Shown: positions 6,307 through 27,797 of the stretch, in pieces | Layout: the number at the start of each line of letters is the position of its first letter | How positions within the stretch are numbered: position 1 is the stretch's first letter | Virus record (IMG/VR): IMGVR_UViG_3300048586_000321 | Span: 1-29,756 of that record | Strand: one strand, 5' to 3' | Length of the DNA stretch: 29,756 nt | Source of the DNA: a virus | Position numbers and translations under genes: made by a program | Notes under the pieces: model-generated | Seen by the model: the letters and a program-made list of their open reading frames with translations, nothing else | The model's database searches: none | Told to the model about the DNA's origin: nothing

Positions 6307-6312
6307 TACCCT
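6307..6312 (+). promoter_or_regulatory. Extended -10 promoter of the RecT-like gene
   Basis: TACCCT preceded by TGC gives an extended -10 (TGN-TANNNT). No -35 is visible, which extended -10 promoters can do without. The predicted start near 6319 gives a leader of about 45 bases that carries a hairpin and a Shine-Dalgarno box. CCTAGCG between box and hairpin is shared with the 9228 promoter. Confidence 0.65.
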
Positions 6313-6323
6313 GTCCGCCTAGC

Positions 6324-6345
6324 GGGCGCCGATGACGAGGCGCCC
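6324..6345 (+). promoter_or_regulatory. Leader hairpin with GATGACGA loop
   Basis: GGGCGCC (6324-6330) and GGCGCCC (6339-6345) form a 7-bp stem around loop GATGACGA. It is one of five such leader hairpins (others at 9245, 17563, 18610 and 27757) whose stems differ in sequence but keep pairing, and whose loop always holds ATGACG. The right arm ends 19 bases before ATG 6365. Confidence 0.7.
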
Positions 6346-6349
6346 CCAT

Positions 6350-6358
6350 CCCAGGAGG
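6350..6358 (+). repeat. Start-associated CCCCAGGAG box (representative copy)
   Basis: CCCAGGAGG before ATG 6365. Exact CCCCAGGAG copies lie at 9266, 10214, 11435, 12644, 14763, 17590, 18637, 19878, 21881, 22706 and 27782, with close variants at 5761 and 15443, each about 7-15 bases before a start codon. AGGAG is a normal ribosome binding core; the fixed CCCC on its 5' side is not explained by pairing with 16S rRNA. Confidence 0.85.
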
Positions 6359-6364
6359 ACCACC

Positions 6365-9230: not shown

Positions 9231-9233
9231 CCT
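9228..9233 (+). promoter_or_regulatory. -10 box overlapping the RuvC-like stop codon
   Basis: TAACCT uses the TAA stop codon as its first three bases. It is followed by CACCGCCTAGCG and the leader hairpin at 9245, the same order as at the RecT-like gene (TACCCT, GTCCGCCTAGCG, hairpin). No -35 seen. Confidence 0.55.
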
Positions 9234-9244
9234 CACCGCCTAGC

Positions 9245-9260
9245 GGCCGATGACGCGGCC
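9245..9260 (+). promoter_or_regulatory. Leader hairpin with ATGACG loop
   Basis: GGCCG (9245-9249) pairs with CGGCC (9256-9260) around loop ATGACG. This is the shortest stem of the five. Its right arm ends 19 bases before the TTG start, exactly as at the RecT-like gene, and a CCCCAGGAG box follows. Confidence 0.65.
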
Positions 9261-9279
9261 CTCGACCCCAGGAGACCCC

Positions 9280-10226: not shown

Positions 10227-10232
10227 AGCCCC

Positions 10233-12225: not shown

Positions 12226-12234
12226 GCGGCCACG

Positions 12235-12663: not shown

Positions 12664-12914
12664 GCAACCCCAAGCGCCCGCACACCGCCGCCGACAAGAC
12701 GGTCGGCGTGTTCGCCGCCGCCGCCGTCATCGCCCTCGGCTACGGGCTCATCGCCGTCGCCATCGTCGCCGGCGTCATCGCCGTCGGCGCGTTCGGCTAC
12801 TCGCTCGCCGAGTACCGCCGCGACGAGCGCGACCGGACCGCCATGCGCGGCGCCGCCGACCGCGCCGCCAACGGAGGCCCCGCCGCCACGAGCCACGAGG
12901 ACGGCCCCCGATGA
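12660..12914 (+). CDS. Small membrane protein
   Basis: 84 residues, preceded by CCCCAGGAG and overlapping its neighbour by ATGA. One long hydrophobic region covers about residues 15-48 (VGVFAAAAVIALGYGLIAVA, then IVAGVIAVGAFGYSLAEY), long enough for a hairpin of two membrane helices, followed by a charged tail with RRDERDR facing the cytoplasm. Function unknown. Confidence 0.75.
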   Translation: MSNPKRPHTAADKTVGVFAAAAVIALGYGLIAVAIVAGVIAVGAFGYSLAEYRRDERDRTAMRGAADRAANGGPAATSHEDGPR

Positions 12915-13429
12915 TCGACGACCCCATCCTCAACCCGCCCACCGACCCCGCCGGCCGCCGCCTCGGCCCAGCCTCCGGCATCACCCCCGACCACCTCGGC
13001 ACCCCCGGCTACGAGTGGCTCGACGCCCTCGGTGTCGTCGTCGCGTCCATCACCATCGTCGGCGACCGCCGCCTCGACGACGGCACCGTCACCCCCGTCC
13101 CCCAGGTCGTCGCCGCCGCGCTCCTCGACGCCGTCGGCGACCTCATCGCCAAGGGCGACCTCCCGCTCGGCCCCGTCAAGGCCGCCGCCGCCGGCGAGGA
13201 CGAGCCCCTCAAGCTCGCCGCCCTCCTCAACGCCATCGGCACATGCCACGACCCCCGATGCGACTACGACCACGCCCACGAGCTCGCCGAGGTCCGCGCC
13301 GGCATCGAGAGCTCCGCCGAGCCCCTCGTCATGGTGGGCCAAGTGGTCACCCTCCCCGGGCGCGCCGGGCCCGGCATCCTCCTCGGCGGCGAGCTCTACG
13401 CCAAGCGGCCACCCGGAGGCGGCGCATGA
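12911..13429 (+). CDS. Protein of unknown function, possible metal site
   Basis: 172 residues, coupled by ATGA on both sides. It contains GTCHDPRCDYDHAHELAEV, where Cys-x4-Cys and His-x-His could bind a metal. The first 40 residues are Pro-rich and the end is Gly-rich (KRPPGGGA). No family recognised. Confidence 0.7.
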   Translation: MIDDPILNPPTDPAGRRLGPASGITPDHLGTPGYEWLDALGVVVASITIVGDRRLDDGTVTPVPQVVAAALLDAVGDLIAKGDLPLGPVKAAAAGEDEPLKLAALLNAIGTCHDPRCDYDHAHELAEVRAGIESSAEPLVMVGQVVTLPGRAGPGILLGGELYAKRPPGGGA

Positions 13430-14010
13430 TCCCCGCCGGCGTCGACGCCCACGACGGGCCCAAGGGCTCCGCCGACCTCTCAACCGACGGCCGCTACCGC
13501 TACGAGCTCCGCCGCAACCTCCTCGGCAACCCACCCCACCGCCGGCGCGCCGTCGCCGTCATGCTCAACCCCTCGACCGCCGACCACGAGCGCAACGACC
13601 TCACCATCACCAAGCTCCTCGGGTTCGGCTCTCGCTGGGGCGCCACCGAGCTCATCGTCGTCAACCTGTTCGCCTACCGGGCCACCGACCCCGACGACCT
13701 CGCCCTCGCCCACCGGGCCGGCACCGACATCGTCGGCCCCTACGACGACGCCTACGTCGCCGGCGCCCTCTCGCTCGCCGCCGACGGTCTCGCCGTCGCC
13801 GCATGGGGAGGACGACCCAAGGCGCTCCCCGCCGAGCTCTACTACCGGCGCATCGAGGAGGTCGTCGACCTCGCCCGACGCCTCGACCGGCCCCTCACCT
13901 CGCTCGGCACCACCAAGCGCGGCGACCCCCGCCACCCCTCCCGCCTTGCCTACGACACCGAGCTCACGCCCTGGGCCCCGGTCGTCGACGACCACCCCGG
14001 CGCGTCGTAG
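13426..14010 (+). CDS. DUF1643 family protein
   Basis: 194 residues. The sequence carries the DUF1643 pattern: RYRYELRRNL near the start, VAVMLNPSTADHERNDLTIT, then FGSRWGATELIVVNLFAYRATDPDDL and the later AAWGG. The family is common in phages and bacteria and is of unknown biochemical role. It overlaps the previous gene by ATGA and closes the coupled run that starts at 9280; its TAG stop doubles as the first half of the -10 box for the small terminase gene. Confidence 0.85.
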   Translation: MIPAGVDAHDGPKGSADLSTDGRYRYELRRNLLGNPPHRRRAVAVMLNPSTADHERNDLTITKLLGFGSRWGATELIVVNLFAYRATDPDDLALAHRAGTDIVGPYDDAYVAGALSLAADGLAVAAWGGRPKALPAELYYRRIEEVVDLARRLDRPLTSLGTTKRGDPRHPSRLAYDTELTPWAPVVDDHPGAS

Positions 14011-14013
14011 CAT
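14008..14013 (+). promoter_or_regulatory. Leaderless promoter of the small terminase gene
   Basis: TAGCAT starts with the TAG stop of the DUF1643 gene and is followed by six bases and ATG 14020. No Shine-Dalgarno sequence fits in the nine-base gap. A weak -35 (TCGACG, 13985-13990) lies 17 bases upstream. Confidence 0.65.
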
Positions 14014-14019
14014 CCGGCC

Positions 14020-14760
14020 ATGGCCCAGCGCGGCAAGCCCAACCCCAAGCCCAAGGGCAAGCGGTACACCGACGCCGACCGGGCGCGCGCCGTCGAGGTC
14101 CTCAAGGCCGACGGGCTCACCGCCGCCGCCAAGGCCATCGGGTGCGCCAAGGCCACCGTCCTCGCCTGGGCCAAGGCCGCCGACGTCGACCCCAGCGACT
14201 ACGCCGACCGTTCGACTGACCAAAACACGCGGGCCGCCGTCGCCGCCGTCGCCGCCCGCCGGGCCACCATGGTCAAGAACCGCGCCGCCCTCTCGGACGA
14301 GCTCATCGGCAAGCTCGCCCCCAAGGCCGCCGCCCTCATCGCCGACCGGCTCGACGAGGAGGCCCGCTACGCCGAGCTCATCGCCGAGGCCGAGGAGCGG
14401 CTAGAGCTCGCCGTCATCGGGCTCCTCGCGTGCGGCGACCCGCCCGAGGACGCCGACGTCGACACCCGCAAGACGTTCGCCGAGGCCCGCAAGACCGCCC
14501 GGGCCGCGGTCGCCGACGCCCGGCTCATCCTCGACGCCTACCGGTCGGGCCGGGTCAAGGTCCCCGAGCTCGTCGGCGTGCTCACCCGGTCGGTCACCGA
14601 CCACCTCGCGCTAGAGGGCGAGGCCCAGGACGCGGCCGCGGCGTCGGGCTCGTTCGCCGTCACCATCACCGCCCCGCGGCCGCCTCGTCGTGCGCCGGCG
14701 CCGGGCGTCGTCACGCTCGACCCGGTCGCCGACCCGGGCGTCCCCACCGTCACCACCTAG
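14020..14760 (+). CDS. terS: Terminase small subunit candidate
   Basis: 246 residues. The N-terminus is basic (RGKPNPKPKGKRYT), followed by a transposase-type HTH (DADRARAVEVLKADGLTAAAKAIG, then CAKATVLAWAKAA). The middle is long and helical (about residues 85-200), with a Pro-rich end. A HTH plus a helical oligomerisation region is the usual layout of small terminase subunits, which recognise phage DNA and hand it to the large subunit. The large subunit gene lies 1 kb downstream. A regulator with the same HTH type is the alternative. Three Leu-Glu pairs are coded CTA GAG or avoided. Leaderless promoter. Confidence 0.7.
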   Translation: MAQRGKPNPKPKGKRYTDADRARAVEVLKADGLTAAAKAIGCAKATVLAWAKAADVDPSDYADRSTDQNTRAAVAAVAARRATMVKNRAALSDELIGKLAPKAAALIADRLDEEARYAELIAEAEERLELAVIGLLACGDPPEDADVDTRKTFAEARKTARAAVADARLILDAYRSGRVKVPELVGVLTRSVTDHLALEGEAQDAAAASGSFAVTITAPRPPRRAPAPGVVTLDPVADPGVPTVTT

Positions 14761-14778
14761 AGCCCCAGGAGGCCCAGC

Positions 14779-15048
14779 ATGCCCACCAAGAACGCCGGCA
14801 CCGCCGTCGTCACCCCCGAGGTCCTCGACGCCGAGGTCCCGTTCACCTACGGGCCCGACGTCGACGAGCTCCGCGAGCGCCGCCACCGGGCCCGGGCCGC
14901 CAAGGTCGCCGGCAACGACCGGGCCCCATGGGAGCGCGGCACCCGCACCGAGGTCGACGCCGCGCTCGGCGATGTCGCCGACGCCAACCGCCGGGCCCGG
15001 GTCGTCCGCCCCACCCGCCGCACCGGAGGCGGAGCTCGACGCCGATGA
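14779..15048 (+). CDS. Small charged protein of unknown function
   Basis: 89 residues, with CCCCAGGAG seven bases before ATG. Helical, rich in Arg and Asp, and ending in a basic tail (RPTRRTGGGARRR). It overlaps the next gene by ATGA. No family recognised; the basic end suggests nucleic-acid contact. Confidence 0.7.
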   Translation: MPTKNAGTAVVTPEVLDAEVPFTYGPDVDELRERRHRARAAKVAGNDRAPWERGTRTEVDAALGDVADANRRARVVRPTRRTGGGARRR

Positions 15049-15233
15049 GGCGCAAGGTCGCCAAGAGCAAGCGCAAGGGCGGCCGATGCCCCACCGGCAA
15101 GGTCCGCTATCGAGACCACGCGAGCGCCACCGCCGCCCTCCGCTACAAGGCCCCCGGCCGAGAGGTCACCCCGGTCCGCGCCTACCCGTGTCCCCGATGC
15201 AACGGGTGGCACACCACGAGCAAGGCCCGATGA
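15045..15233 (+). CDS. Small zinc-ribbon-like protein
   Basis: 62 residues. It shows a pattern common among small actinophage proteins: a lysine/arginine-rich start (RRKVAKSKRKGGRCPTGKVRY), the helix ASATAALRYK, and the end YPCPRCNGWHTTSK with Cys-x2-Cys and a following His. With the first Cys it can form a zinc site. Function unknown, probably nucleic-acid binding. ATGA overlaps on both sides; too short to be caught by simple length filters. Confidence 0.8.
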   Translation: MRRKVAKSKRKGGRCPTGKVRYRDHASATAALRYKAPGREVTPVRAYPCPRCNGWHTTSKAR

Positions 15234-15409
15234 CCCCGCCCGCACCCCGCCGCCGGCGCACCTGGGTCGTCCCCTGCCACGGGTGCGGCTCCACCGACCG
15301 GGCCCGCCCCCTCGACGAGACCGTCACCCCAGCCATGCGCGTCATCCTCTGCGCGTCGTGCGGCATCGAGCTCTACCGGTTCCCCACCGGGCTCGGCGCC
15401 GGCCAGTAG
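15230..15409 (+). CDS. Small two-CxxC zinc-finger protein
   Basis: 59 residues, coupled by ATGA. Two Cys-x2-Cys pairs are spaced to bind one zinc: PCHGCGS near residue 16 and LCASCGIE near residue 45, with a basic N-terminus (PAPRRRRTWV). Typical of phage mini zinc ribbons. The TAG stop forms the start of the -10 box TAGCCT. Confidence 0.75.
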   Translation: MTPPAPRRRRTWVVPCHGCGSTDRARPLDETVTPAMRVILCASCGIELYRFPTGLGAGQ

Positions 15410-15412
15410 CCT
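15407..15412 (+). promoter_or_regulatory. Candidate promoter before 15461
   Basis: TAGCCT overlaps the previous stop codon. GGCGCCGGCC lies two bases upstream, as before 17405 and 27527, and GCGCCGG (15396-15402) with CCGGCGC (15415-15421) forms an inverted repeat around the box, a possible operator. It would give a leader of about 45 bases with a GCCCAGGAG box, but no ATGACG hairpin. Confidence 0.5.
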
Positions 15413-15460
15413 CACCGGCGCAACGGCACCACCACCACCACCGCCCAGGAGGGCCCCGCC

Positions 15461-15805
15461 ATGAGCGTCACCGAGACCAACACCACCGCCCCCATGACCC
15501 TCGACATCCACATCACCATCGGGCTCGACGGCGAGGCGCTCAACGCCCTCGGCGCCGCGCTCAACCCCGAGGGCGACCCCACCGACGACGGCTCGGGCGT
15601 GCGCGACGTCCTCGGCGACCTCATCACCGGCGCCCTCATGCGGGCCGGCGCGGCGATCATCGCCCCGGTCGAGGAGGCCATCGGCGCCGGGCTCACGTCG
15701 CTCCCCGGCGTGTCGGTCGCCGGCTCCGCCAACGTGTCCGGTGGGTTCACCGTCACCACCGAGCTCGCCGCCGAGACCCCGGCCGAGACCCCGGCCGAGG
15801 GCTAG
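15461..15805 (+). CDS. Protein of unknown function
   Basis: 114 residues with GCCCAGGAG ten bases before ATG. It starts with a Thr-rich stretch and a beta strand (TLDIHITIGLDGEALNALGAAL), continues with a helix (VRDVLGDLITGALMRAGAAII) and has a beta-rich, Thr/Glu-rich C-terminus with two TPAE units. No family recognised. It ends three bases before the large terminase start, so it is likely expressed with it. Confidence 0.7.
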   Translation: MSVTETNTTAPMTLDIHITIGLDGEALNALGAALNPEGDPTDDGSGVRDVLGDLITGALMRAGAAIIAPVEEAIGAGLTSLPGVSVAGSANVSGGFTVTTELAAETPAETPAEG

Positions 15806-15808
15806 CCC

Positions 15809-17386
15809 ATGGGCGGCCGCCGGGCCGCCGCCGACCTCACCCCCGCCGGCGACGGTCGGCCCGTCATCCTCGACTACCCGCCCTCGGGCGATGGGTCACG
15901 GCAAGGCCCCAACGCGGCCCAGGCCGAGGCCCACCGCATCGAGGTCGACGAGCTCCTCTACGGAGGCGCCGCCGGCGGAGGCAAGACCGACTACCTCATC
16001 GCCGAGGTCCTCGCCGTCCTCATCGAGTTCCCCGGGTCCGCCGGCGCCATCTTCCGGCGCACCGTCCCCCAGCTACAAGAGCTCGGCGGCATCGCCAACC
16101 GCCTCCTCGACCGGCTCCCCCAGCCCGAGGCCGGCACCTACAACGCCGTCCAACGCGTCTGGACCCTCCGCAACGGCTCGATGCTCCGCCTCGCCGCGTG
16201 CGCCCGCGACGCCGACGTCACCAAGTACCAAGGCGCCGAGTGGGCCATCGTCGCGTTCGACCAGCTTGAGCAATTTACCGAGTTCCAATACCGGTACATG
16301 CTCCACCGCCTCCGCCAATCGGGAGGCGTCGCCGCCGCCATGCGCGAGGTCGGCTACCGGCCCAAGGCCATCGCCTCCGCCAACCCCGGAGGCGTCGGTC
16401 ACGGCTGGGTCAAGCGCCGATGGATCGACCCGTTCCCCCGCGGGCGCCAACCGTTCCGGCCGGCACCGACCGCCACCGAGCCCGACCCGTCGGTCCGCGT
16501 GTTCATCCCCGCCACGCTCAACGACAACGAGCACAACGTCGACCCCGGCTACCGCCGCCAGCTTGAGGCCCTCCCCGACGACACCCGACGCGCCATGCTC
16601 GACGGCGATTGGAACGTCTACGCCGGCCAGCGGTTCCGCCAGTTCACCACCGGCACCCACGTCGTCGACCCCTCACGGCTCCGGCTCCCGCTCTCCTCGG
16701 CGATCCCCCGGGCCCTCGGCATCGACTACGGGCTCTCGGCCCCGTTCTGCGCGTTGTGGGGCGCCAAGCTCGCCGACGACCTCATCTACGTCTACCGCGA
16801 GCTCTACCGCACCGAGCTCACCCCAACCCAACAGGCCGAGCTCATCCTCGCGTCCGAGGCGCCCGGCGAGCGCACCCGCGCCCGCCCCATCCCCGCCGCG
16901 CTCGACCCCGCATGCTGGGCCCGAGGCCCCGACGACCCGGCCACCGTCAAGGGTGACGTCGGCGCCGTCACGGGCCCGCCGCCGTCGAGCATCGCCGGCA
17001 AGTACGTCGCCGCCGGCGTCCCCGTGTCCAAGGCCAACAACGACCGGCTCGCCGGCGTCGCCGACATCGACGACCGGCTCCGGGTCCGGGCCGATGGGTT
17101 CCCCCGGCTCCTCATCTCCTCCGCGTGCACCAACCTCATCCGCACGCTCCCCGAGCTCCCCCGCTCGACCAAGCGCCCCGAGGACATCGACACCACCGCC
17201 GAGGACCACGCCTACGACGCGCTCCGCTACCTCGTGCTCAAGCTCGGCCGCATGCGCCCGGGCCAGTCGGCGACCGCCGGCGTGACGCCGTCCGCCCCTC
17301 CGCCGGGTGCGCCGCCTCGCCCGGGTGGGCGCGGCGCGGCCGCCGTGCTGGGCCGCCCGGTCGTCGAGCCCATCGGCGAGCTCTAG
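15809..17386 (+). CDS. terL: Terminase large subunit
   Basis: 525 residues, an ATPase-nuclease that pumps DNA into the prohead and cuts it. Walker A is YGGAAGGGKT (Lys59, Thr60). The Walker B region is WAIVAFDQLEQFTEFQYRYM: Asp151 is followed by Gln152 where the family usually has the catalytic Glu, with Glu154 two residues later. SANPGG (about 190) is the coupling motif. The nuclease half has LGIDYG (Asp306), AALDPACW (Asp366) and EDHAYDALRY. A Pro/Gly-rich tail follows. Length is normal. Leu-Glu and Gln-Leu pairs use CTT or CTA in place of CTC. Confidence 0.93.
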   Translation: MGGRRAAADLTPAGDGRPVILDYPPSGDGSRQGPNAAQAEAHRIEVDELLYGGAAGGGKTDYLIAEVLAVLIEFPGSAGAIFRRTVPQLQELGGIANRLLDRLPQPEAGTYNAVQRVWTLRNGSMLRLAACARDADVTKYQGAEWAIVAFDQLEQFTEFQYRYMLHRLRQSGGVAAAMREVGYRPKAIASANPGGVGHGWVKRRWIDPFPRGRQPFRPAPTATEPDPSVRVFIPATLNDNEHNVDPGYRRQLEALPDDTRRAMLDGDWNVYAGQRFRQFTTGTHVVDPSRLRLPLSSAIPRALGIDYGLSAPFCALWGAKLADDLIYVYRELYRTELTPTQQAELILASEAPGERTRARPIPAALDPACWARGPDDPATVKGDVGAVTGPPPSSIAGKYVAAGVPVSKANNDRLAGVADIDDRLRVRADGFPRLLISSACTNLIRTLPELPRSTKRPEDIDTTAEDHAYDALRYLVLKLGRMRPGQSATAGVTPSAPPPGAPPRPGGRGAAAVLGRPVVEPIGEL

Positions 17387-17404
17387 CCCGTCGGCGCCGG
17401 CCGC

Positions 17405-17410
17405 TACCGT
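17405..17410 (+). promoter_or_regulatory. Leaderless-type -10 box after terL
   Basis: TACCGT is followed by seven bases and GTG 17418, the spacing of the other leaderless promoters. GGCGCCGGCC (17393-17402) lies two bases upstream, as before 15407 and 27527. What it drives is uncertain because the frame from GTG 17418 is short. Confidence 0.5.
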
Positions 17411-17417
17411 GGTCGTC

Positions 17418-17516
17418 GTGGCTCCTCTCCTGGGGCTCACTCGGGCCCGGCCCGGTCATCCTGGGGCTCTACGTCGTCATCGTCGAGCTCGCCGCCGCAC
17501 CACGGCGAACAGGTAG
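17418..17516 (+). CDS. Uncertain 32-residue ORF, or disrupted small membrane protein
   Basis: GTG 17418 has leaderless spacing to TACCGT but its frame gives only 32 arginine-rich residues with codons unlike the neighbours. The frame one base later (from 17419 to the TAG at 17548-17550) uses the window's normal codons and reads LLSWGSLGPGPVILGLYVVIVELAAA, a good membrane segment, but has no start codon. A one-base indel just after the GTG would join the two. It could be a sequence error, a decayed gene or chance. Confidence 0.25.
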   Translation: MAPLLGLTRARPGHPGALRRHRRARRRTTANR

Positions 17517-17547
17517 GCCGGCGCCGGGCCCGCTCGCGCTTGTGTGC

Positions 17548-17553
17548 TAGTCT
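17548..17553 (+). promoter_or_regulatory. Extended -10 promoter
   Basis: TAGTCT preceded by TGC (TGTGCTAGTCT), an extended -10 like the one at 6307. No -35. Upstream, 17524-17539 is an exact copy of 23371-23386. Transcription should begin near 17560, just before the leader hairpin. Confidence 0.65.
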
Positions 17554-17562
17554 GTGCGGGTA

Positions 17563-17583
17563 GCGGGCCGATGACGGGCCCGC
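17563..17583 (+). promoter_or_regulatory. Leader hairpin with GATGACG loop
   Basis: GCGGGCC (17563-17569) pairs with GGCCCGC (17577-17583) around loop GATGACG. A CCCCAGGAG box follows at 17590. The ATG of the loop opens a 12-codon frame whose TGA overlaps the ATG at 17606, so a coupled leader peptide is possible here. Confidence 0.7.
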
Positions 17584-17605
17584 CCAACGCCCCAGGAGGC
17601 ACCCC

Positions 17606-18166
17606 ATGACCACCAACCCCTACGCCATCGGCGACCGCGTCACCGCCGGCCGAGGCACCAACACCTACGAGGTCGTCGAGGTCTCGGGCGGCAACGTCGT
17701 CGTCGAGAACGTCAACGACCGCGGCGTCCGCTACACCCTCGGCGCCCGCGACGTCCGGCCCACCAACACCCGCCACGGCGACCCCCTCGCCCTGTTCCCC
17801 ATCATCGACGCCCAGGTCCCCGGCAAGGCCATCGTCGTCGAGCTCGCCACCGACACCCCCGAGGGCGCGGCCCCGTGCTACCTCGTCATCGAGCGGGCCG
17901 ACGGCGCCTACGACACCATCGTCGAGCGGTCCTACATCGCCGGCGCCGCCATCGCCAAGGCCATCGCCCTCGCCGGCTGGGCCAAGGCCGTCGTCCCCGA
18001 GGTCGTCGGCGACGAGGAGCTCGGCCGCGAGCTCGCCGACCTCATCGTCACGACCACGGGCCGGGCGGCCGCCCAGCCCCAGCGCCGGGCCATCATCGAG
18101 CGCCACGTCACCCGCTGGGACGCCGAGGCCATCGACCTCGCCGACGCCGAGGAGGCGGGCGCTTGA
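17606..18166 (+). CDS. Unknown protein with KOW/SH3-like N-terminus
   Basis: 186 residues, with CCCCAGGAG seven bases before ATG. The N-terminus YAIGDRVTAGRGTNTYEVVEVSGGNVVVENV has the GDxV start and alternating strands of a small SH3/KOW barrel. The middle has VPGKAIVVELA, similar to a stretch in the 9280 product, and the C-terminus is helical. It heads the accessory run between terminase and portal and overlaps the next gene by TTGA. Confidence 0.75.
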   Translation: MTTNPYAIGDRVTAGRGTNTYEVVEVSGGNVVVENVNDRGVRYTLGARDVRPTNTRHGDPLALFPIIDAQVPGKAIVVELATDTPEGAAPCYLVIERADGAYDTIVERSYIAGAAIAKAIALAGWAKAVVPEVVGDEELGRELADLIVTTTGRAAAQPQRRAIIERHVTRWDAEAIDLADAEEAGA

Positions 18167-18573
18167 GCGCCACCGAGCTCCGCCAGTACCGGGCGCCCGG
18201 CGTCCGCACCTACCTCCGCCCCGGCGACCTCGTCGTCGTCGAGCCCGCCACGGGCCGGCGCATCGTGGTCCGGGTCAAGGCCATCACCATCCCGTCCGAC
18301 ACCGCCGAGCGCCTCGTCGCCGCTGGGGAGGACGACATCGTCGCCGGCATCCTCGCCGCCGAGGGCATCGTCGAGCCCGAGCTCGTCACCGTCCACGCCG
18401 CCACCGTCGCCACGACGGGCGGCACGCTCCACCCGCAGCGCGGCACGGCGCGGGCGTTCACGGCCGCCGCCGTGGTCTCCCGCGTCACCGGGCGCCGCCT
18501 CGACCGCATCCTCGCCGCCGAGGCGGAGCACCCGCCGCCCGCCGGCCCGGCACCGAGGCGGCCCCGGCGGTAG
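18163..18573 (+). CDS. Unknown protein, small beta-barrel-like start
   Basis: 136 residues from TTG 18163, whose bases overlap the previous stop (TTGA); GAGGAGG lies upstream. There is no ATG or GTG before the conserved-looking part (YRAPGVRTYLRPGDLVVVEPATGRRIVVRVKAI), which supports the TTG. That part again has the GDxVVV strand pattern of SH3-like barrels. The C-terminus is basic and Pro-rich. Confidence 0.65.
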   Translation: MSATELRQYRAPGVRTYLRPGDLVVVEPATGRRIVVRVKAITIPSDTAERLVAAGEDDIVAGILAAEGIVEPELVTVHAATVATTGGTLHPQRGTARAFTAAAVVSRVTGRRLDRILAAEAEHPPPAGPAPRRPRR

Positions 18574-18596
18574 TGGCATCCGCTAGCCCCATCGCC

Positions 18597-18602
18597 TAGC
18601 AT
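18597..18602 (+). promoter_or_regulatory. -10 box before 18657
   Basis: TAGCAT ends seven bases before the leader hairpin, so the transcript should begin at or next to the hairpin's first base. GTGGCA (18573-18578) is a weak -35 at 18 bases. Confidence 0.55.
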
Positions 18603-18609
18603 CAACCCC

Positions 18610-18631
18610 GGGCCCGCATGACGGCGAGCCC
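18610..18631 (+). promoter_or_regulatory. Leader hairpin with ATGACG loop
   Basis: GGGCCCGC (18610-18617) pairs with GCGAGCCC (18624-18631) at seven of eight positions around loop ATGACG. A CCCCAGGAG box follows at 18637. The loop ATG is in frame with the gene start 39 bases later. Confidence 0.65.
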
Positions 18632-18656
18632 CGACACCCCAGGAGACACCAACCCC

Positions 18657-19124
18657 ATGAGCACCACCACCACGCCCGCCAAGTTCTACCGGCTCCCCGC
18701 CGAGGAGCGCACCCGCACCGCCGAGGCCCGCACCGGCACCTACGTCACCGCCGTCGTCGACTACCGAGGCAACGGGCCGCACGAGCGGTACACCGGCGAG
18801 CTCGTCACCGTCGCCATCACCAACACCGGCACCACCTCGGCCGAGGCCATCATCCGCATCCCCAACCCGCGCAAGCGGGCCCGGGCTATCTCGCTCGCCA
18901 CCATCACCGAGCTCCGCCCGGCCACCAACGGCGAGCTCCTCGCCGCCGGCATGCTCGACGTCGTCGAGGGCCGCCGGCTCGTCGAGCGCGTCGCCATTGT
19001 CCGCGAGGCCCAGGCCCTCGGCGCCATCGACGAGCCCACCGCCGTCGCCATCCGAGAGCTCGCCGACGAGCTCGTCGAGGCCCAGGTCCGGGCCGCCCAC
19101 CGCGCGGCCGGAGCGGTCCGATGA
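18657..19124 (+). CDS. Protein of unknown function
   Basis: 155 residues from ATG 18657, chosen over the in-frame loop ATG 18618 because CCCCAGGAG lies eleven bases upstream. The first half is beta-rich (GTYVTAVVDYRGNG, YTGELVTVAITNTG, AEAIIRIPN) and the second half helical (EPTAVAIRELADELVEAQVRAAH). No family recognised. Overlaps the next gene by ATGA. Confidence 0.75.
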   Translation: MSTTTTPAKFYRLPAEERTRTAEARTGTYVTAVVDYRGNGPHERYTGELVTVAITNTGTTSAEAIIRIPNPRKRARAISLATITELRPATNGELLAAGMLDVVEGRRLVERVAIVREAQALGAIDEPTAVAIRELADELVEAQVRAAHRAAGAVR

Positions 19125-19279
19125 GCGCACACTCGGGCGCGTGTCGCTCGACCGAGCCCTCGGGGCTCGGCACCCGTTGGGCGTGCTCGCTCCCCACCGG
19201 TCACAAGGGCCCGCACAAGGCCAAGCTCCCCGGCGGCACCGTCGTCAAGACGTGGGCCCGCAAGGGCGGCCGGCGATGA
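19121..19279 (+). CDS. Small Cys/His protein
   Basis: 52 residues, with ATGA overlaps at both ends. Cys8, Cys22, His28 and His32 are arranged as C-x13-C-x5-H-x3-H in CRSTEPSGLGTRWACSLPTG followed by HKGPHKAK; the CxLPxGHxGxH element recurs in short actinobacterial and phage proteins and may bind zinc. The end is basic (TWARKGGRR). Very short, but the tight coupling and codon use make it convincing. Confidence 0.75.
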   Translation: MSAHSGACRSTEPSGLGTRWACSLPTGHKGPHKAKLPGGTVVKTWARKGGRR

Positions 19280-19389
19280 GCGGCACCGTGCTCGCCTACG
19301 CCACCGGCGCCGACCTCTACGGCGCCCTCGCCCTCCTCGCCGGGTCCGCCATCATCGGGCTCGCCGCCGTGCTGGGCCGACGCCCATGA
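19276..19389 (+). CDS. 37-residue membrane miniprotein
   Basis: Coupled by ATGA on both sides. Residues 12-34 (DLYGALALLAGSAIIGLAAVL) form one membrane helix followed by GRRP, a positive cytoplasmic end. It has no recognisable family. Its place in a tightly overlapped run argues that it is a real gene. Confidence 0.65.
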   Translation: MSGTVLAYATGADLYGALALLAGSAIIGLAAVLGRRP

Positions 19390-19652
19390 GCGCCCCCGAG
19401 CTCGTCGTCGGGCTCTCCACCACCGACGCCATGCTCGCCGCCCGGGCCGGCGCCCGCCTCGGGCTCGACCTCATCCGCCTCGACGACGCCGGCGAGCTCA
19501 TCGCCGCCGGCGCCGTCGAGGACGTCGAGGCCCTCGTCGACGAGCTCAACACCATCGCCGGAGCCCGGGCCGAGGCCCAGGACGTCCCCGGCACCGACGA
19601 GGCGGCCGAGCTCGCCCTCCGGCTCCTCGACGCCATCGAGGCGGCCGCCTAG
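19386..19652 (+). CDS. Acidic helical protein of unknown function
   Basis: 88 residues, starting in an ATGA overlap. It begins with a short strand (PELVVGLS) and is otherwise helical and acidic (AVEDVEALVDELNTIAG; DEAAELALRLLDAIEAAA). No motif recognised. Confidence 0.68.
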   Translation: MSAPELVVGLSTTDAMLAARAGARLGLDLIRLDDAGELIAAGAVEDVEALVDELNTIAGARAEAQDVPGTDEAAELALRLLDAIEAAA

Positions 19653-19654
19653 CC

Positions 19655-19873
19655 ATGAGCGCCGAGCGCCGGCGGCTCGCCCGCCTTGCCGACGTCGCCG
19701 AGGCCCGCCTCGCTCTCGCCCGCACCAAGCCCGACGGCGCCACCCCGGCCCGCCTCGCCGAGCTCGCCGAACGGGCCCGGGCCGCACGCGTCGCCGCCGA
19801 CACCTACCATGAGCCACGCCCGACCGGAGTGACGCCGGCCGAGCCCCGTACCCGTCGAGACCTCGACGGCTAG
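19655..19873 (+). CDS. Small Arg/Ala-rich helical protein
   Basis: 72 residues, starting two bases after the previous stop. The first 48 residues are one long charged helix (RRRLARLADVAEARLALART; LAELAERARAARVAADTYH), followed by a Pro-rich end. No family recognised. Confidence 0.65.
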   Translation: MSAERRRLARLADVAEARLALARTKPDGATPARLAELAERARAARVAADTYHEPRPTGVTPAEPRTRRDLDG

Positions 19874-19895
19874 CAACCCCCAGGAGACCCCAACG

Positions 19896-20555
19896 ATGAG
19901 CACTCACGCCGTCGAGCCCCACTACCCCACCATCGCCCCGTTCGCCATCGCCGACGTCGAGACCGTCCTCGGCATCGTCGAGAGCACCGAGGACCTCGCC
20001 ATCGAGGAGCGCCTCGCCGTCGAGCGCCTCCGCCTCACGCTCACCGCCGCCCAACAGGCCCAGGCCCGGGCCCGGTCCGATCATCCCAGCCTCGACGGGC
20101 TCCTCGGCGCCGAGGTCGACGCCGGCAACGTCGTCGCCGGCCCGGTCCACGGGCCCGCCACCCACGGCGCCCACGTCACCGAGGAGGACGCCGCCGAGCG
20201 CATCCGGCTCGTCGCCGGCAACCTCCGGGCCCGGGTCCTCGCCGCCATCGTCGAGGCCGGGCCCGCCGGGCTCACCGACACCGAGGTCGAGGCCAAGCTC
20301 GGGCTCCGCCGGCCGACCGGCGGCAACCGCCGCGGCGAGCTCGTCAAGCTCGGGCTCGTCGCCAAGCGGCTCGACGAGGGCGGCGCCACCATCAAGCGCA
20401 CCGTCGCCGGCCACGGGCCCGCCGCGTGCTGGGCCGCCACCGACCGGGCCATCCCGGCGCTCCGCGAGCTCGGCTACGACGTCGTCGAGGACCTCATCGG
20501 GTGGTCCGCCCCGACCGTCACGGCGCCGGGCCCCGAGCTCGACATCGTCCGATGA
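19896..20555 (+). CDS. Winged-helix-like DNA-binding protein
   Basis: 219 residues with CCCCAGGAG nine bases before ATG. Residues about 110-170 look like a winged helix: RARVLAAIVEAGPAGLTDTEVEAKLGL, then GNRRGELVKLGLVAKRLDEG and a strand pair GGATIKRTVAG. The pattern resembles MarR-type or type II restriction-linked wHTH modules that sense or bind DNA. A second part ends WAATDRAIPALRELGYDVVEDLIGW. It may regulate the accessory run it lies in. Overlaps the next gene by ATGA. Confidence 0.7.
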   Translation: MSTHAVEPHYPTIAPFAIADVETVLGIVESTEDLAIEERLAVERLRLTLTAAQQAQARARSDHPSLDGLLGAEVDAGNVVAGPVHGPATHGAHVTEEDAAERIRLVAGNLRARVLAAIVEAGPAGLTDTEVEAKLGLRRPTGGNRRGELVKLGLVAKRLDEGGATIKRTVAGHGPAACWAATDRAIPALRELGYDVVEDLIGWSAPTVTAPGPELDIVR

Positions 20556-21067
20556 GCGGGCCCGTCACCATGGCGGCCGCCGACCTCGACACCGGCGCCC
20601 GCCTCGACCGCTACACCCCGGGCGTCGCCGCCCTCCTCCCCTGGGCCCGCTCGGTCGTCCTCGTCCACGCTCCCGCCGGCGAGGACGACCGCGGGCTCTC
20701 GTGCGACGAGCGCGGTTGTCTCGTGTGCAACGTGGGAGGCGAGGACGCCGCCGAGCTCCTCGCCGCCGGCGTCGTCGCCGGCCACTACCCCGAGCCCGAC
20801 GACGACGAGCTCGACGAGCTCATCGAGGAGGCGGCCGCCACCGGCGTCAACCCGGCCCGGCCCATCCCCGAGCTCGTCTACGCCGCCCGCCACGCCCGAG
20901 GGCAGGGTCACCGCCGGGTCACGCACGCGCTCGCCCCCGAGGACCCCGCACGAGGCGGCCGGCGGGCCGCGTGCGGCGCCGCCCCAGCCTCGGGGCTCGT
21001 CCACGCTCTCGGGCTCCTCGGGCCGGCGCCGTCGTGTCCCCGGTGCGCCGCCATCGTCGCCCGATGA
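20552..21067 (+). CDS. Cys-rich protein, probable zinc binding
   Basis: 171 residues, coupled by ATGA on both sides. Two Cys groups are visible: SCDERGCLVCN near residue 52 and AACGAAPASG followed by CPRCAAIVAR at the C-terminus, so one or two zinc sites are likely. The middle is acidic (DDDELDELIEEAA). No family recognised. Confidence 0.7.
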   Translation: MSGPVTMAAADLDTGARLDRYTPGVAALLPWARSVVLVHAPAGEDDRGLSCDERGCLVCNVGGEDAAELLAAGVVAGHYPEPDDDELDELIEEAAATGVNPARPIPELVYAARHARGQGHRRVTHALAPEDPARGGRRAACGAAPASGLVHALGLLGPAPSCPRCAAIVAR

Positions 21068-21318
21068 GCGCCACCGCCGCCCAGGTCGCCGAGGCGTTCC
21101 TCGACCGGGGAGGCTGGGCCCTCGTCGCCGAGAGCTCGTCGGGCCGCATCTACCGGCGGCCCGATGCCCAGCCCGGCGCCGCCCGCATCGCCCACATCGG
21201 CGCACGCGGCCGCGTCGAGCTACGCCGGGCCGACGGCGTCACGGTCGTCAAGGGCATCCCGGCGGCCGCCCACGAGCAGACCGCCCGCACCGCCATCCGC
21301 AAGGCCCTCGGGCGTTAG
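21064..21318 (+). CDS. Protein of unknown function
   Basis: 84 residues, starting in an ATGA overlap. It reads as a compact alpha/beta unit: helix (AAQVAEAFLDRG), strands (WALVAESSSGRIYRRP; RIAHIGARGRVELRR; VTVVKGIP) and a final helix (AAHEQTARTAIRKAL). No family recognised with confidence. Confidence 0.7.
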   Translation: MSATAAQVAEAFLDRGGWALVAESSSGRIYRRPDAQPGAARIAHIGARGRVELRRADGVTVVKGIPAAAHEQTARTAIRKALGR

Positions 21319-21322
21319 CCCC

Positions 21323-21351
21323 TTGACCTAGCGCGCCCGAGCGCCGACCAT
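21323..21351 (+). promoter_or_regulatory. Leaderless promoter with -35 and -10
   Basis: TTGACC (21323-21328), one base from the TTGACA consensus, is separated by exactly 17 bases from GACCAT (21346-21351), which lies seven bases before ATG 21359. The good -35 may make up for the G at the first position of the -10. This is the best two-box promoter in the window. Confidence 0.65.
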
Positions 21352-21358
21352 GGTGGGC

Positions 21359-21592
21359 ATGGCCCTCGACCGCATCCTCGTCGCCCAGTCCGCCCGCCGG
21401 CGGCTCTCGGCGCGCGCCGATGCGCTTGCCATCGAGGCGGCCGAGCTCGCCGATGGCGGCCGCCGGGTCGAGGCGGAGGAGCTCGCCCGGGCCGGCATGG
21501 CGGCCGAGCTCGCCATCGGGCTCGCGCTCGACGCCGAGGTCGAGGCGACGGTCGACGACCTCCTCGCCCGCGCCGGTACTTGCGTCCGCTAG
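21359..21592 (+). CDS. Small helical protein of unknown function
   Basis: 77 residues from ATG 21359; an in-frame ATG at 21350 would add three residues, but the promoter spacing fits 21359. Nearly all helix, rich in Ala, Leu, Arg and Glu (RILVAQSARRRLSARADAL; RRVEAEELARAGMAAELAIG). No motif. Its codons (GCG, GAGGCG) are slightly less C-biased than in neighbours. Confidence 0.65.
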   Translation: MALDRILVAQSARRRLSARADALAIEAAELADGGRRVEAEELARAGMAAELAIGLALDAEVEATVDDLLARAGTCVR

Positions 21593-21608
21593 CCCCACGG
21601 GCTAGCGT
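21580..21608 (+). promoter_or_regulatory. Leaderless promoter before GTG 21616
   Basis: TAGCGT (21603-21608) is seven bases from GTG 21616, and TTGCGT (21580-21585) lies 17 bases upstream as a half-matching -35. No Shine-Dalgarno sequence is present. Confidence 0.6.
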
Positions 21609-21615
21609 TCTCCTC

Positions 21616-21879
21616 GTGACCACCGCACCCGCCACCACCGCCATCGAGCTCGACGCCGACCTCCTCTCGCTCGGCGATGTCGTCCGGTTCCCCGGCGAGC
21701 GCCGCCGCTACCGCATCGGCCGCATCCGCCGCTACGCCCTCATCCCCACCCGGGCCCAGGAGGCGGACCTCCCCACCGACGACCGGGCCCGCATCGACCT
21801 CGACCTCTACCCGGTCTCCCGTGGCGGCTCGTCCGACCGCCGCACCGTCCGCCCCACCGACCGCGTCCTCACCTACTGA
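21616..21879 (+). CDS. Small beta-rich protein of unknown function
   Basis: 87 residues from GTG, placed by the leaderless promoter. LLSLGDVVRFPGERRRYRIG followed by RIRRYALIP has the GDxVxF strand pattern of small SH3-like barrels, and the end is basic (SSDRRTVRPTDRVLTY). It may bind nucleic acid. It ends 17 bases before the next ATG. Confidence 0.7.
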   Translation: MTTAPATTAIELDADLLSLGDVVRFPGERRRYRIGRIRRYALIPTRAQEADLPTDDRARIDLDLYPVSRGGSSDRRTVRPTDRVLTY

Positions 21880-21896
21880 GCCCCAGGAGCCCCAGC

Positions 21897-22688
21897 ATGA
21901 CCACCACCACCCTCGCCACCGCCGCCGTCGCCATCGTCGACGCCCTCGCCGACAACGACCACCGGGCCCGCCTCGGCGACGCCCTCGACGCCTACCGCAC
22001 CGCCCGAGGGCTCAAGGCCGGCGACCGGGTCACCGTCCCCACCGACACCGTCCGCGCATCCCGCTCCGCCTGGGGCGCCCGCATCTACGGCGAGGTCGTC
22101 GTCGGCGCCCGAGGCGGCATCACCGTCCGAGCGTTCTACGACGGGTCCGAGTGGGCCGTCCCCGCCGGCCGGCTCGACGAGGTCGAGGTCCGCGCCGACC
22201 TCCTCATCGCCGAGGCCGAGGAGCTCGCCCCCATCGCCATCGCCGACCTCGACGCCGGCACCGACGCCCCGGTCGTCCTCGTCCCGTGCGGCGCCGCCAA
22301 GCTCGACCACCGGGCCCCCGCCGGCGAGCTCTACGTCGGCTCGCTCCACCGCTCCGCCCGCCGGGCCGCCGACCGCTACGCCGCCGAGCTCGGCGCCACC
22401 GTGCTCATCCTCTCGGCCGCTCACGGGCTCGTCGCCCTCGACGCCGAGCTCGACCCCTACGACGTCACCATCGGCGACGCCGGCGCCATCACCGCCGAGG
22501 AGCTCGCCGCCCAGGCCGCCGAGCTCGGCATCACCCGGGCCGTCGTGCTCGGCTCCGCCGGCTACGTCGCCCTCGCCCGCTCCGCCGGCATCGACGTCGA
22601 GGCGCCGCTCGCCGGCTCCCCGGGTCTGTTCGCCATGCGCGGCCGCCTCCGCGCCCTCGCCGTCGGCGAGCTCCCGCTCGCCGCATGA
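21897..22688 (+). CDS. DUF6884-like protein with SH3-like N-terminus
   Basis: 263 residues with CCCCAGGAG seven bases before ATG. The N-terminal third has KAGDRVTVPTD and VVVGARGGITVRAFYDG, a small barrel pattern. From about residue 122 it matches the DUF6884 type: VVLVPCGAAKLDHRAPAGEL, YVGSLHRSARRAADRYA, VLILSAAHGLVALDAELDPY. This family is widespread in phages and actinobacteria; the conserved Cys, Lys, His and PYD residues suggest an enzyme, but its reaction is not established to my knowledge. The fusion with the barrel is notable. Its stop overlaps a possible upstream start of the next gene. Confidence 0.75.
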   Translation: MTTTTLATAAVAIVDALADNDHRARLGDALDAYRTARGLKAGDRVTVPTDTVRASRSAWGARIYGEVVVGARGGITVRAFYDGSEWAVPAGRLDEVEVRADLLIAEAEELAPIAIADLDAGTDAPVVLVPCGAAKLDHRAPAGELYVGSLHRSARRAADRYAAELGATVLILSAAHGLVALDAELDPYDVTIGDAGAITAEELAAQAAELGITRAVVLGSAGYVALARSAGIDVEAPLAGSPGLFAMRGRLRALAVGELPLAA

Positions 22689-22723
22689 CCACCACCAACC
22701 CAACACCCCAGGAGACACCGACC

Positions 22724-23320
22724 ATGACCAGCACCCCAGCCCCCACCGAGCTCATCCCCGACCCCGGCCGGCGCCGCCTCCGCCTCGCCTGCCCCGACGG
22801 CGACCTCACGAGCATCATGCCCCGGGCCAACGCCGACCGGCTCGCGGCCCGCACCGGCGCCGACCTCGACGACCTCAACGACGTCGAGGTCGCCGAGTGC
22901 GTCGCCCTCGCCATCGAGGTCGCCGCCGCCCAGGCCGCCGGCGCACCCGCCGACGTCGAGCTCGTCACGGTCCGCCCGGTCGTCCTCCCGCCCATCGAGG
23001 ACGGCGCCGACCCCGAGGTCGTCGTCGCCGGCGTCATCGCCCTCGGCATCTACGGCGCCACCTCGGGCGAGCTCCTCGCCGCCGCCACCATTGACGCCCG
23101 GGCGGCCCTCGACGTCTACGTCCGAGGCTCGGCCGACCACCGAGGCCCCGAGCTCTCGCTCGACCTCGACGACGAGCGGTTCGCCGAGCTCGTCGGCGAG
23201 CTCATGGTCCGGCTCATCGTCCGGCCCGCCGGCGCCGCCAGCCTCGCCGGCCGCATGCTCCGCGTCGCCGCCGGCGACGAGCTCGCCACCTCGGTCGCCG
23301 AGGAGCTCGCCCGCCGATAG
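22724..23320 (+). CDS. Protein of unknown function
   Basis: 198 residues from ATG 22724, nine bases after CCCCAGGAG. An in-frame ATG at 22685 overlaps the previous stop (ATGA) and would add 13 residues; I prefer the start with the box. It is mixed alpha/beta and acidic: an N-terminal strand region (RRRLRLACPDGDLTSIM), a helix with DDLNDVEVAECVALAIEVAA, and a helical C-terminus (ERFAELVGELMVRLIV). No family recognised. It is the last gene before a hairpin terminator. Confidence 0.7.
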   Translation: MTSTPAPTELIPDPGRRRLRLACPDGDLTSIMPRANADRLAARTGADLDDLNDVEVAECVALAIEVAAAQAAGAPADVELVTVRPVVLPPIEDGADPEVVVAGVIALGIYGATSGELLAAATIDARAALDVYVRGSADHRGPELSLDLDDERFAELVGELMVRLIVRPAGAASLAGRMLRVAAGDELATSVAEELARR

Positions 23321-23345: not shown

Positions 23346-23379
23346 CGGGCCCGGCCGACACCCTCCTCGGCCGGGCCCG
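23346..23379 (+). terminator. Perfect 13-bp hairpin upstream of the portal gene
   Basis: CGGGCCCGGCCGA (23346-23358) and TCGGCCGGGCCCG (23367-23379) form a perfect 13-bp stem with an 8-base loop. No T tract follows. It lies 25 bases after the last accessory gene and 10 bases before the portal -10 box, so it probably ends the upstream transcript and separates it from the head operon. Its right arm occupies the -35 position of that promoter. Confidence 0.7.
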
Positions 23380-23389: not shown

Positions 23390-23395
23390 TACCAT
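23390..23395 (+). promoter_or_regulatory. Leaderless promoter of the portal gene
   Basis: TACCAT lies seven bases before ATG 23403, with no Shine-Dalgarno sequence between. The -35 region is inside the terminator hairpin arm and has no consensus. Confidence 0.65.
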
Positions 23396-23402: not shown

Positions 23403-25082
23403 ATGCCACCCCTCGCGCCGCCCCCGACCAACGAGCTCGGCGCCCCCGGCATCGTGTCGTTCGCCGGCTACGTCGACACCTGGGAGGAGACCCCCGAGCT
23501 CCGGTTCCCGTTCGCCGTGCGCGTGTACGACCGCATGCGCCGCACCGACGCGCAGATCGACGCCGTCCTCCGGGCCGTCGACCTCCCCATCCGCCGGACC
23601 GGTTGGTCCCTCTCGACCGACGGCGTCGACCCCCGGGTCGCCGCGTTCGTCCGCGACGAGCTCGGGCTCGACCTCGACCGCACCGCCGCCGCCCGCCGCC
23701 GGCGCCGCCGTCAAGGCATCGTGTGGGCCGACGTCCTCCGGCATGCGCTCCTCGCCCGCCCGCTCGGATTCATGCCACTAGAGCAGGTCTACGAGGTCGG
23801 CCCGCCCGGGCCCGGGCAGGAGAGCTACGGGCTCCCCCGCCTCACCGCGCACGTCCGCAAGCTCGCCCCGCGCATGCCCCGGAGCGTCACCGCCATCGAC
23901 ATCGCCGACGACGGTGGGCTCACCGCCATCCGCCAGCACGTCGCCCGGCAGGACCGGCCCACCGATGAGGTCATCATCCCGGCCGACCGGCTCGTCATGT
24001 TCGTCAACGAGCGCGAGGGCGCCGACTGGACCGGCCGCTCCTGTCTCCGCTCGTCCTATGGGCATTGGCTCATCAAGACCCAACTACTCAAGCTCGGGCC
24101 CGTCATCGCCGAGCGCAACGGCATGGGCATCCCCGTCGTCACGTTCTCCAACGGGCAGGACCGCAACGAGGCCCTCGACATCGCCACCAAGCTCCGCGCC
24201 GGCGAGACCGCCGGCGTCGCGCTCCCCGAGGGCATGGCGCTCTCGCTCGTCGGCGTCGAGGGCTCGCTCCGCGACGAGCTCCCCCTCCTCAAGTACCACG
24301 ACGAGGCCATCGGCCGGGCCGCGCTCGCCATGGTCCTCAACCTGGGCCACGACAACGGCGCCCGCTCGCTCGGCGACACCTTCCTCGACCTGTTCCTCCT
24401 GTCCGAGCAAGCCACCATCGTCGACATCGAGGACACCGTCACCGAGTACGTCATCCGCGACCTCGTCGAGCTCAACTACGGCGAGGACGAGCCCTACCCG
24501 GTGCTCAAGGCCGACGAGCTCGCCGCCGACGCCGCCCCCACCGCCGAGGCCCTCAAGTCGCTCGCCGACGCCGGGCTCCTCGACGGCGACCCCGAGCTCA
24601 AGGCCGACGTCCGCCGCCGGTTCCGGCTCCCCGCCCCAGCGGTCGCCGACGCCCCCCAGGACGCCCCCACGCCGGCGCCGACCGACCCGGCCGGGCCCGA
24701 GCCCATCCGAGAGCTCCCCGCCGGCTCCGCCGCCCCCGGCATGACGGCCGACGAGCTCCTCAAGCTCGTCAACGCCGCCGCCGCGCTCATCCGCTCCGGG
24801 TTCTCCCCCGACAAGGCGCTCACCGCCGTCGGGCTCGACCCCATCGAGCACCTCGGGCTCCTCCCCGTCACCGTGCAGAAGCCCGAGCAACCCGTCGCCG
24901 GGCTCTCCGCCGCGTCCGAGCCCACCGCCCTCGACGTCGCCCGGGCGCTCGCATGGGCCACCGAGGCGCTCGCCACCCCGGCCCCGCCGGCGCGCATGAG
25001 CTCGCCCGCCGCCCGGGCCCAGCGCGCCGCCGAGCTCGCCGCCCGGGCCGCGGCGCTCGCCGGCGCCACCGTCGACGAGTAG
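23403..25082 (+). CDS. Portal protein, DUF935/Mu gp29-like
   Basis: 559 residues. The portal is the ring at the capsid vertex through which DNA enters. Features: ELRFPFAVRVYDRMRRTDAQIDAVLRAVDLPIRRTGWSL at the N-terminus is the typical start of portals that count off crown and stem; then MPLEQVY, the strand IIPADRLVMFVNEREGADWTGRSCLR, and the long helix NGMGIPVVTFSNG to TFLDLFLLSEQATI. The C-terminal 130 residues are Ala/Pro-rich, acidic and then Ala/Arg-rich, longer than usual. Gene order portal, Mu F-like, small genes, Mu I-like protease follows the Mu arrangement and supports the call. It starts from a leaderless promoter. Confidence 0.85.
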   Translation: MPPLAPPPTNELGAPGIVSFAGYVDTWEETPELRFPFAVRVYDRMRRTDAQIDAVLRAVDLPIRRTGWSLSTDGVDPRVAAFVRDELGLDLDRTAAARRRRRRQGIVWADVLRHALLARPLGFMPLEQVYEVGPPGPGQESYGLPRLTAHVRKLAPRMPRSVTAIDIADDGGLTAIRQHVARQDRPTDEVIIPADRLVMFVNEREGADWTGRSCLRSSYGHWLIKTQLLKLGPVIAERNGMGIPVVTFSNGQDRNEALDIATKLRAGETAGVALPEGMALSLVGVEGSLRDELPLLKYHDEAIGRAALAMVLNLGHDNGARSLGDTFLDLFLLSEQATIVDIEDTVTEYVIRDLVELNYGEDEPYPVLKADELAADAAPTAEALKSLADAGLLDGDPELKADVRRRFRLPAPAVADAPQDAPTPAPTDPAGPEPIRELPAGSAAPGMTADELLKLVNAAAALIRSGFSPDKALTAVGLDPIEHLGLLPVTVQKPEQPVAGLSAASEPTALDVARALAWATEALATPAPPARMSSPAARAQRAAELAARAAALAGATVDE

Positions 25083-27744: not shown

Positions 27745-27750
27745 TAGCAT
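27745..27750 (+). promoter_or_regulatory. -10 box before 27798
   Basis: TAGCAT ends six bases before the leader hairpin, so transcription should start on or beside its first base, as at 18597. No -35. Confidence 0.55.
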
Positions 27751-27756
27751 GCCGAC

Positions 27757-27776
27757 GGGCCCGATGACGCGGGCCC
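27757..27776 (+). promoter_or_regulatory. Leader hairpin with ATGACG loop
   Basis: GGGCCCG (27757-27763) pairs perfectly with CGGGCCC (27770-27776) around loop ATGACG. CCCCAGGAG follows at 27782. Here the loop ATG is out of frame with the gene and has no nearby stop, which argues that the loop is conserved as RNA and not as a start codon. Confidence 0.7.
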
Positions 27777-27797
27777 CCCAACCCCAGGAGGACCCCC

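Follow-up and report, generated by a model that had tools for sequence, protein, structure and literature searches.

Why should a run of small genes stand between the large terminase gene (TerL) and the portal gene of a tailed phage, two genes that are usually neighbours? The question is raised by the virus IMGVR_UViG_3300048586_000321, whose whole IMG/VR entry (29,756 bp with 75% guanine plus cytosine (GC), no end repeats and a partial genome) is the window analysed here. The interval between TerL and the portal gene holds a cassette of 14 open reading frames (ORFs), named g1 to g14, all on the same strand and spanning positions 17606-23320. This agrees with the first-pass annotation, which had counted about fourteen small and mostly unrecognised genes between the end of TerL at 17386 and the start of the portal gene at 23403. 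The reading that we favour, and regard as rather probable, is that the TerL-portal junction of this lineage of tailed phages with a Portal_Mu-type portal is a variable accessory slot, and that the cassette represents a separately transcribed filling of it, expressed early together with the RecT-like gene and directed at phage DNA or at the host.

The TerL-portal interval in relatives

The left border of the slot is TerL (15809..17386, + strand; Terminase_6N, 2e-6) and the right border is the portal gene (23403..25082, + strand; Portal_Mu, 1.2e-45). We measured the gap between them in 47 relatives in which profile searches retrieved both genes, after removal of identical copies; a single-sequence portal scan returned nothing, and alignment queries succeeded. 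The gap is of 43-133 bp in 26 of the 47 relatives, so the two genes are indeed usually neighbours. It measures 193-272 bp in four relatives, 463-2170 bp in 14 and more than 6 kb in the remaining three, namely L101 (6.2 kb), L330 (8.1 kb) and L337 (8.2 kb); the value for L314 is uncertain, its terminase match being partial. In the annotated isolates Altadena, Sonny, PrincessTrina and Vasanti, only 14-43 bp separate the two genes. The nearest relatives by terminase (64-66% identity) are G001 (IMGVR_UViG_3300037193_001287), a complete genome of 51,146 bp with a 141-bp end repeat and 13.7 kb in the slot, whose portal is 57% identical to that of the window, and L009, which ends inside the slot.

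DNA methyltransferases were found in the slots of seven loci: Hirko and Jinkies harbor one methyltransferase or DNA methylase each, Vibaki a methyltransferase and a small gene, and L090, L320, L365 and L101 Pfam-confirmed C5 or N6/N4 methyltransferases, L101 also holding an ASCH protein. The slot of L009 contains a UvrD helicase, a close homologue of which lies in the slot of G001. The contents of the cassette are almost wholly different from those of the relatives' slots; in G001, only g3 matches a slot protein (phmmer 1.4e-6, plus alignment). According to these comparisons, the location of the slot is conserved and its filling variable, and the cargo region proposed in the first-pass annotation is supported by a gap whose size in relatives goes from tens of bp up to 13.7 kb and whose contents differ. 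Among the papers that it covered, a literature search retrieved no description of this TerL-portal slot.

Some further features of these slots deserve mention. The C5 DNA methyltransferase in the slot of L101 (L101:14716-17301) is split by an intein (Hint domain), and L330 (L330:2066-9945) and L337 (L337:1854-9987) carry about 8 kb with 15-20 small unknown genes, partly shared by both. Moreover, the gene following the MuF gene in the window (28911-29474) resembles a gene placed just after TerL in G001 (L010:12123-12602; 32%, 6e-4), and small genes may thus move between slots.

Promoter-like elements, leader hairpins and the end of the cassette

A standard scan for sigma-70 promoters and T-run terminators found nothing in this 75% GC DNA. 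Hexamers of the form TANNNT occur 14 times on the + strand of the record versus twice on the - strand, and nine of the 14 are wholly intergenic, intergenic DNA amounting to 5.8% of the record (binomial P ~1e-8). Most of the intergenic hexamers fall into two classes, the one 7 nt before a start, that is, of the leaderless type (2849, g12, the portal gene and 27540), and the other 47-54 nt before it (the RecT-like gene, g1, g3 and 27798). A lone intergenic TANNNT lies at 17405, and a small-terminase candidate at 14020 has one 6 nt upstream.

Within the interval, the putative -10 elements on the + strand are TAGTCT (17548..17553), the first cassette promoter, 52 nt upstream of g1; TAGCAT (18597..18602), before g3; TAGCGT (21603..21608), of the leaderless type, 7 nt upstream of the g12 start codon GTG; and TACCAT (23390..23395), also of the leaderless type, 7 nt before the portal ATG. 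A promoter-like pair, TTGACC-17-GACCAT (21323..21351, + strand), precedes g11, but it is weak and its -10 is not a TANNNT. Thus, of the promoters claimed for the block, those at 17548, 18597 and 21603 are supported as + strand TANNNT elements and the one at 21323 less so, none of them reaching a 9-of-12 sigma-70 match.

The two leader hairpins reported for the cassette were confirmed, as members of a set of five characterized by an AUGACG loop, differing stems and a CCCAGGAG ribosome site downstream. All five are on the + strand, and four of them accompany the TANNNT elements placed 47-54 nt before a start. In the cassette, one (GCGGGCC-GATGACG-GGCCCGC, 17562..17583) lies in the leader of g1 (17548-17605) and the other, which is bulged (18610..18631), in that of g3 (18597-18656). 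The remaining leaders are located at 6307..6364, together with a predicted promoter of the same kind, before the RecT-like gene starting at 6365 (phrog_561, 2e-24), at 9240..9279, before a gene at 9280, and at 27745..27797, before a small gene at 27798. Five of the seven ATGACG words of the + strand fall in these leaders, and four of the seven are enclosed in stems of 5 bp or more without mismatches, versus a background of 2.4% and none of the 31 words on the minus strand. The leaders had no match in Rfam, ARAGORN was also negative, and a scan of viral contigs with the hairpin-leader pattern gave only chance matches, one per contig and in no convincing leader context. The CCCAGGAG site precedes seven of 17 early-region genes, five of 14 cassette genes and none of 13 structural genes (Fisher 0.04 for cassette versus structural), in a comparison of small numbers whose gene classes we set ourselves.

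A similar arrangement was found in G001, with a different leader (GCCGGC-GGACG-GCCGGC). The 9-mer at its core, GGCGGACGG, has exactly two copies on that strand of the genome, one in the slot and the other immediately upstream of the gene preceding RecT; in L009 it follows TerL, ahead of the first slot genes. Furthermore, three of the four TTGAC/TANNNT promoters of G001 are inside the slot, and the fourth opens the RecT region. On the basis of these motifs, slot and recombination genes are linked through leader sequence in two divergent genomes, which in turn would imply early expression. Palindromic GTAGGTTGACAACCTAC-like sites were noticed at G001 promoters (L076:1770-1873 and L075:15967-16057, minus strand), and GTTAGGCTGACCACCTAAC occurs twice in the slot of L011 (near 2800 and at 3449-3470); both look like operators of a phage regulator.

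The block ends, as had been proposed, at a perfect 13-bp, terminator-like hairpin (23346..23379, + strand; -40.9 kcal/mol, z -6.6), which is both the longest perfect hairpin and the strongest one of the record and lies directly before the portal -10. With promoters predicted both at its beginning and within it, and a hairpin at its end, the cassette has the anatomy of a regulated region. Transcription would start after TerL and restart inside the block, and the 13-bp hairpin would close the unit ahead of the portal's own leaderless promoter. Since two cassette leaders share the AUGACG hairpin with the RecT-like gene, the cassette is most likely made early, with the recombination genes, and not late with the head genes; the same sharing argues against a plain late-structural expression. 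A bolder and tentative idea, to which we give limited credence, is that the AUGACG-loop hairpins (GGACG-loop in G001 and L009) represent an RNA element, new and specific to this lineage, that is recognised by a factor encoded by the phage itself; slot and recombination gene would thereby be joined in a single early regulon, the slot being a dedicated early counter-defence island.

Gene content of the cassette and the DUF6884 protein

Twelve of the 14 ORFs came from a gene caller based on codon composition, and two (19121-19279 and 19655-19873) were added, fitting the tiling of the interval, in which start codons mostly overlap or almost abut the preceding stop. All lie on the + strand. According to Pfam, PHROGs and PADLOC, only g13 can be confidently identified, and 12 of the 14 genes do not have even a weak domain assignment. 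Moreover, g1, g3, g8 and g14 gave zero tblastn matches in 50,697 phage records, and g8 has no relatives in viral contigs either.

The gene g13 (21897..22688, 263 residues) consists of an N-terminal half of unknown fold joined to a DUF6884 domain (PF21818, residues 126-240; Pfam 1.3e-18, 67.9 bits versus a gathering score of 30), as the first-pass annotation had recognised. Both signature motifs are present, that is, CGAAK at residues 131-135 (CxxxK) and LSAAHG at residues 172-177 (LSAxxG), and PADLOC matched the protein with PDC-M57A (5e-13) and DpdC (1e-6). In the AlphaFold2 (AF2) model, the predicted local distance difference test score (pLDDT) is mostly 74-93 for residues 123-260 and below 50 for the N-terminal half. 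Structure alignment of residues 121-263 gave Z 6.8 with AF0587 and Z 6.0 over 131 residues with YaaA of E. coli, unrelated folds reaching Z 5, and Foldseek returned no match under 1e-3. With structural neighbours barely above background, the model supports but does not prove a YaaA-like fold. In Pfam, DUF6884 is a distant relative of the DNA-binding protein YaaA, marked by the conserved motifs CxxxK and LSAxxG, and one of its members, from Bacillus, interacts with DNA lesions (PMC11701544); the same domain is that of DpdC, from the 7-deazaguanine DNA modification cluster (PMC11888242), and 7-deazaguanine shields phage DNA against restriction (PMC6884629). A tie of g13 to 7-deazaguanine or restriction is possible. 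QueC and QueD genes flank a DUF6884 gene related to g13 in a contig of an uncultured phage (L164:5310-6851), and the domain was not found in G001, L330, L337, L101 and L084.

As for the other genes, g8 (19896..20555, 219 residues) is a probable winged-helix DNA-binding protein (residues 97-170); the winged-helix label of the first-pass annotation corresponds to a match with MarR_2 below the cutoff (6e-4), beside one with phrog_18663 (6e-5). The SH3-like proteins of that annotation were not confirmed: the AF2 model of g3 (18657..19124, 155 residues), the sole cassette protein with a relative in the G001 slot, is of low confidence (pLDDT 51) and too poor for a fold assignment. Its Cys-rich miniproteins proved to be a loose label, covering g4 (19121..19279), with two Cys in 52 residues and a GHKGPH motif, and g9 (20552..21067), with six Cys in 171 residues, and its membrane miniprotein is a possible one, judged from the single hydrophobic stretch in the 37-residue sequence of g5 (19276..19389). 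The remaining proteins are unknown, that is, g1 (17606..18166, 186 residues), g2 (18163..18573, 136 residues, TTG start), g6 (19386..19652, 88 residues), g7 (19655..19873, 72 residues), g10 (21064..21318, 84 residues), g11 (21359..21592, 77 residues, start shifted from 21350), g12 (21616..21879, 87 residues, GTG start) and g14 (22724..23320, 198 residues). The PADLOC matches of g8 with CARF3 (4e-3) and of g10 with JetB (5e-3) were weak and were not used as evidence, and a paralogy among cassette proteins, prompted by recurring ELLAAG-like words, was unsupported by phmmer.

Under the reading that we favour, the cassette products would act on phage DNA or on host processes. The DUF6884 domain most likely enables g13 to bind nucleic acid, and g8 would be a DNA-binding regulator. 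Because the slots of relatives hold methyltransferases or a helicase, the genes together most likely serve to protect or process phage DNA. Both the slot and g13 make a part in anti-restriction or DNA modification plausible, and anti-defence would be the most economical guess for the cassette as a whole; the anti-defence or host-takeover functions suggested by the first-pass annotation thus retain a circumstantial basis, in the methyltransferases of the relatives' slots and the DpdC/YaaA-like domain of g13.

Concerning the rest of the record, tail and lysis genes (1-6193) are followed by the region of the RecT-like gene and many small genes (6365-15805), and a MuF/protease-like protein and then the start of the capsid region come after the portal. 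A DUF1643 protein (13426-14010, 2e-27) is encoded directly upstream of the putative small terminase, and 335 bp of intergenic DNA (8206-8540) with several CTGGGGA repeats represent a possible origin or operator region. The best protein-level matches of the record are with Arthrobacter phages (about 50% identity); at the nucleotide level, the 50,697 phage records yielded as relatives just two phages of Arthrobacter, whose match is confined to TerL (74%), and a genome scan found actinobacterial terminase relatives only in Jiangella and Nakamurella (47-49% identity).

Alternative explanations and known systems

Several observations weigh against an imported, separately expressed, DNA-directed cassette. 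Its GC content (0.74-0.78) equals that of the rest of the record and thus gives no hint of a recent import. A standard scan finds no promoter, all sites falling short of a 9-of-12 match with sigma-70, the -35 elements are poor, and the 13-bp hairpin is not followed by a T-run. Leaderless or hairpin promoters also precede tail, small-terminase-candidate, portal and post-MuF genes, so that promoters alone do not single out the cassette. The DNA-directed role depends on g13, the weak match of g8 and the slot contents of other phages, and no cassette gene has a homologue with a tested anti-defence role.

Could the cassette be an essential early or DNA-replication region, relocated to this junction in the present sub-lineage? 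The UvrD-type helicase in the slots of G001 and L009 and the leaders common to the slot and the RecT gene or region in the record and in G001 would fit such an origin; nevertheless, Pfam and PHROGs revealed no recognisable replication enzyme among the cassette proteins, the block is wholly absent from most relatives, and the two closest ones do not share their contents, g3 excepted, which makes this explanation unlikely. It is also quite unlikely that the cassette is a module dedicated to DNA modification or counter-restriction, with the DpdC/YaaA-like g13 at its core: although DpdC has DUF6884 as its Pfam domain (PMC11888242), the g13 relative of L164 is flanked by QueC and QueD, and DNA methyltransferases occupy other slots, no TGT/DpdA was detected in the 29.8-kb record (a partial genome) or in the L164 contig, no C5 or N6/N4 methyltransferase is present anywhere in the record, and YaaA-like domains have a link to DNA damage as well (PMC11701544).

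The location within the head gene order and the common direction of all genes might instead point to late-expressed proteins with an accessory function in the head or in packaging (decoration, internal or ejection proteins); this we consider improbable, given that most relatives whose terminase and portal are homologous lack the genes, that their leaders and ribosome sites are common to the RecT region and not to structural genes, and that no structural family was matched in the same searches. Lastly, an assembly or gene-calling artefact, conceivable in an uncultured IMG/VR contig, is hardly credible in view of the uniform GC content, the strong codon-position bias, the start/stop overlaps of a tiled operon and the expanded slots of independent contigs.

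If the accessory-slot reading is correct, the TerL-portal junction would be a predictable address for accessory, probably early-acting genes, which can be found via two conserved flanking genes, and a direct route for mining counter-defence or DNA-acting proteins in uncultured phages of high-GC hosts; the common leader hairpin would provide a sequence-level handle on co-expressed genes.

Accessory cargo between conserved phage genes is of a known kind. Like phage morons, the cassette is inserted between conserved late genes, is absent from relatives and has its own predicted promoter and terminator; unlike them, it comprises 14 genes in one run, with leaders common to the RecT gene and a phage-like base composition, a differing one being common in morons but not obligatory. 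Compared with the DUF6884/YaaA/DpdC proteins, g13 has a domain above the curated cutoff, both motifs and a predicted fold that may resemble YaaA, but it is fused to its N-terminal half, and no DpdA gene was detected in the record, a partial genome. The Arthrobacter phages Vibaki, Hirko and Jinkies share the position of the slot and homologous terminase and portal (about 50% identity), with one or two slot genes, including a methyltransferase, against the 14 of the cassette, which has none. G001 is similar in its expanded slot with promoters, a leader hairpin common to its RecT region and one homologous slot protein (g3), and differs in the length of the slot, the UvrD-type helicase, the otherwise different genes and the loop sequence of the leader. 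Within this known kind, what is new is the size of the cassette, the lineage-wide TerL-portal address and the common leader hairpins.

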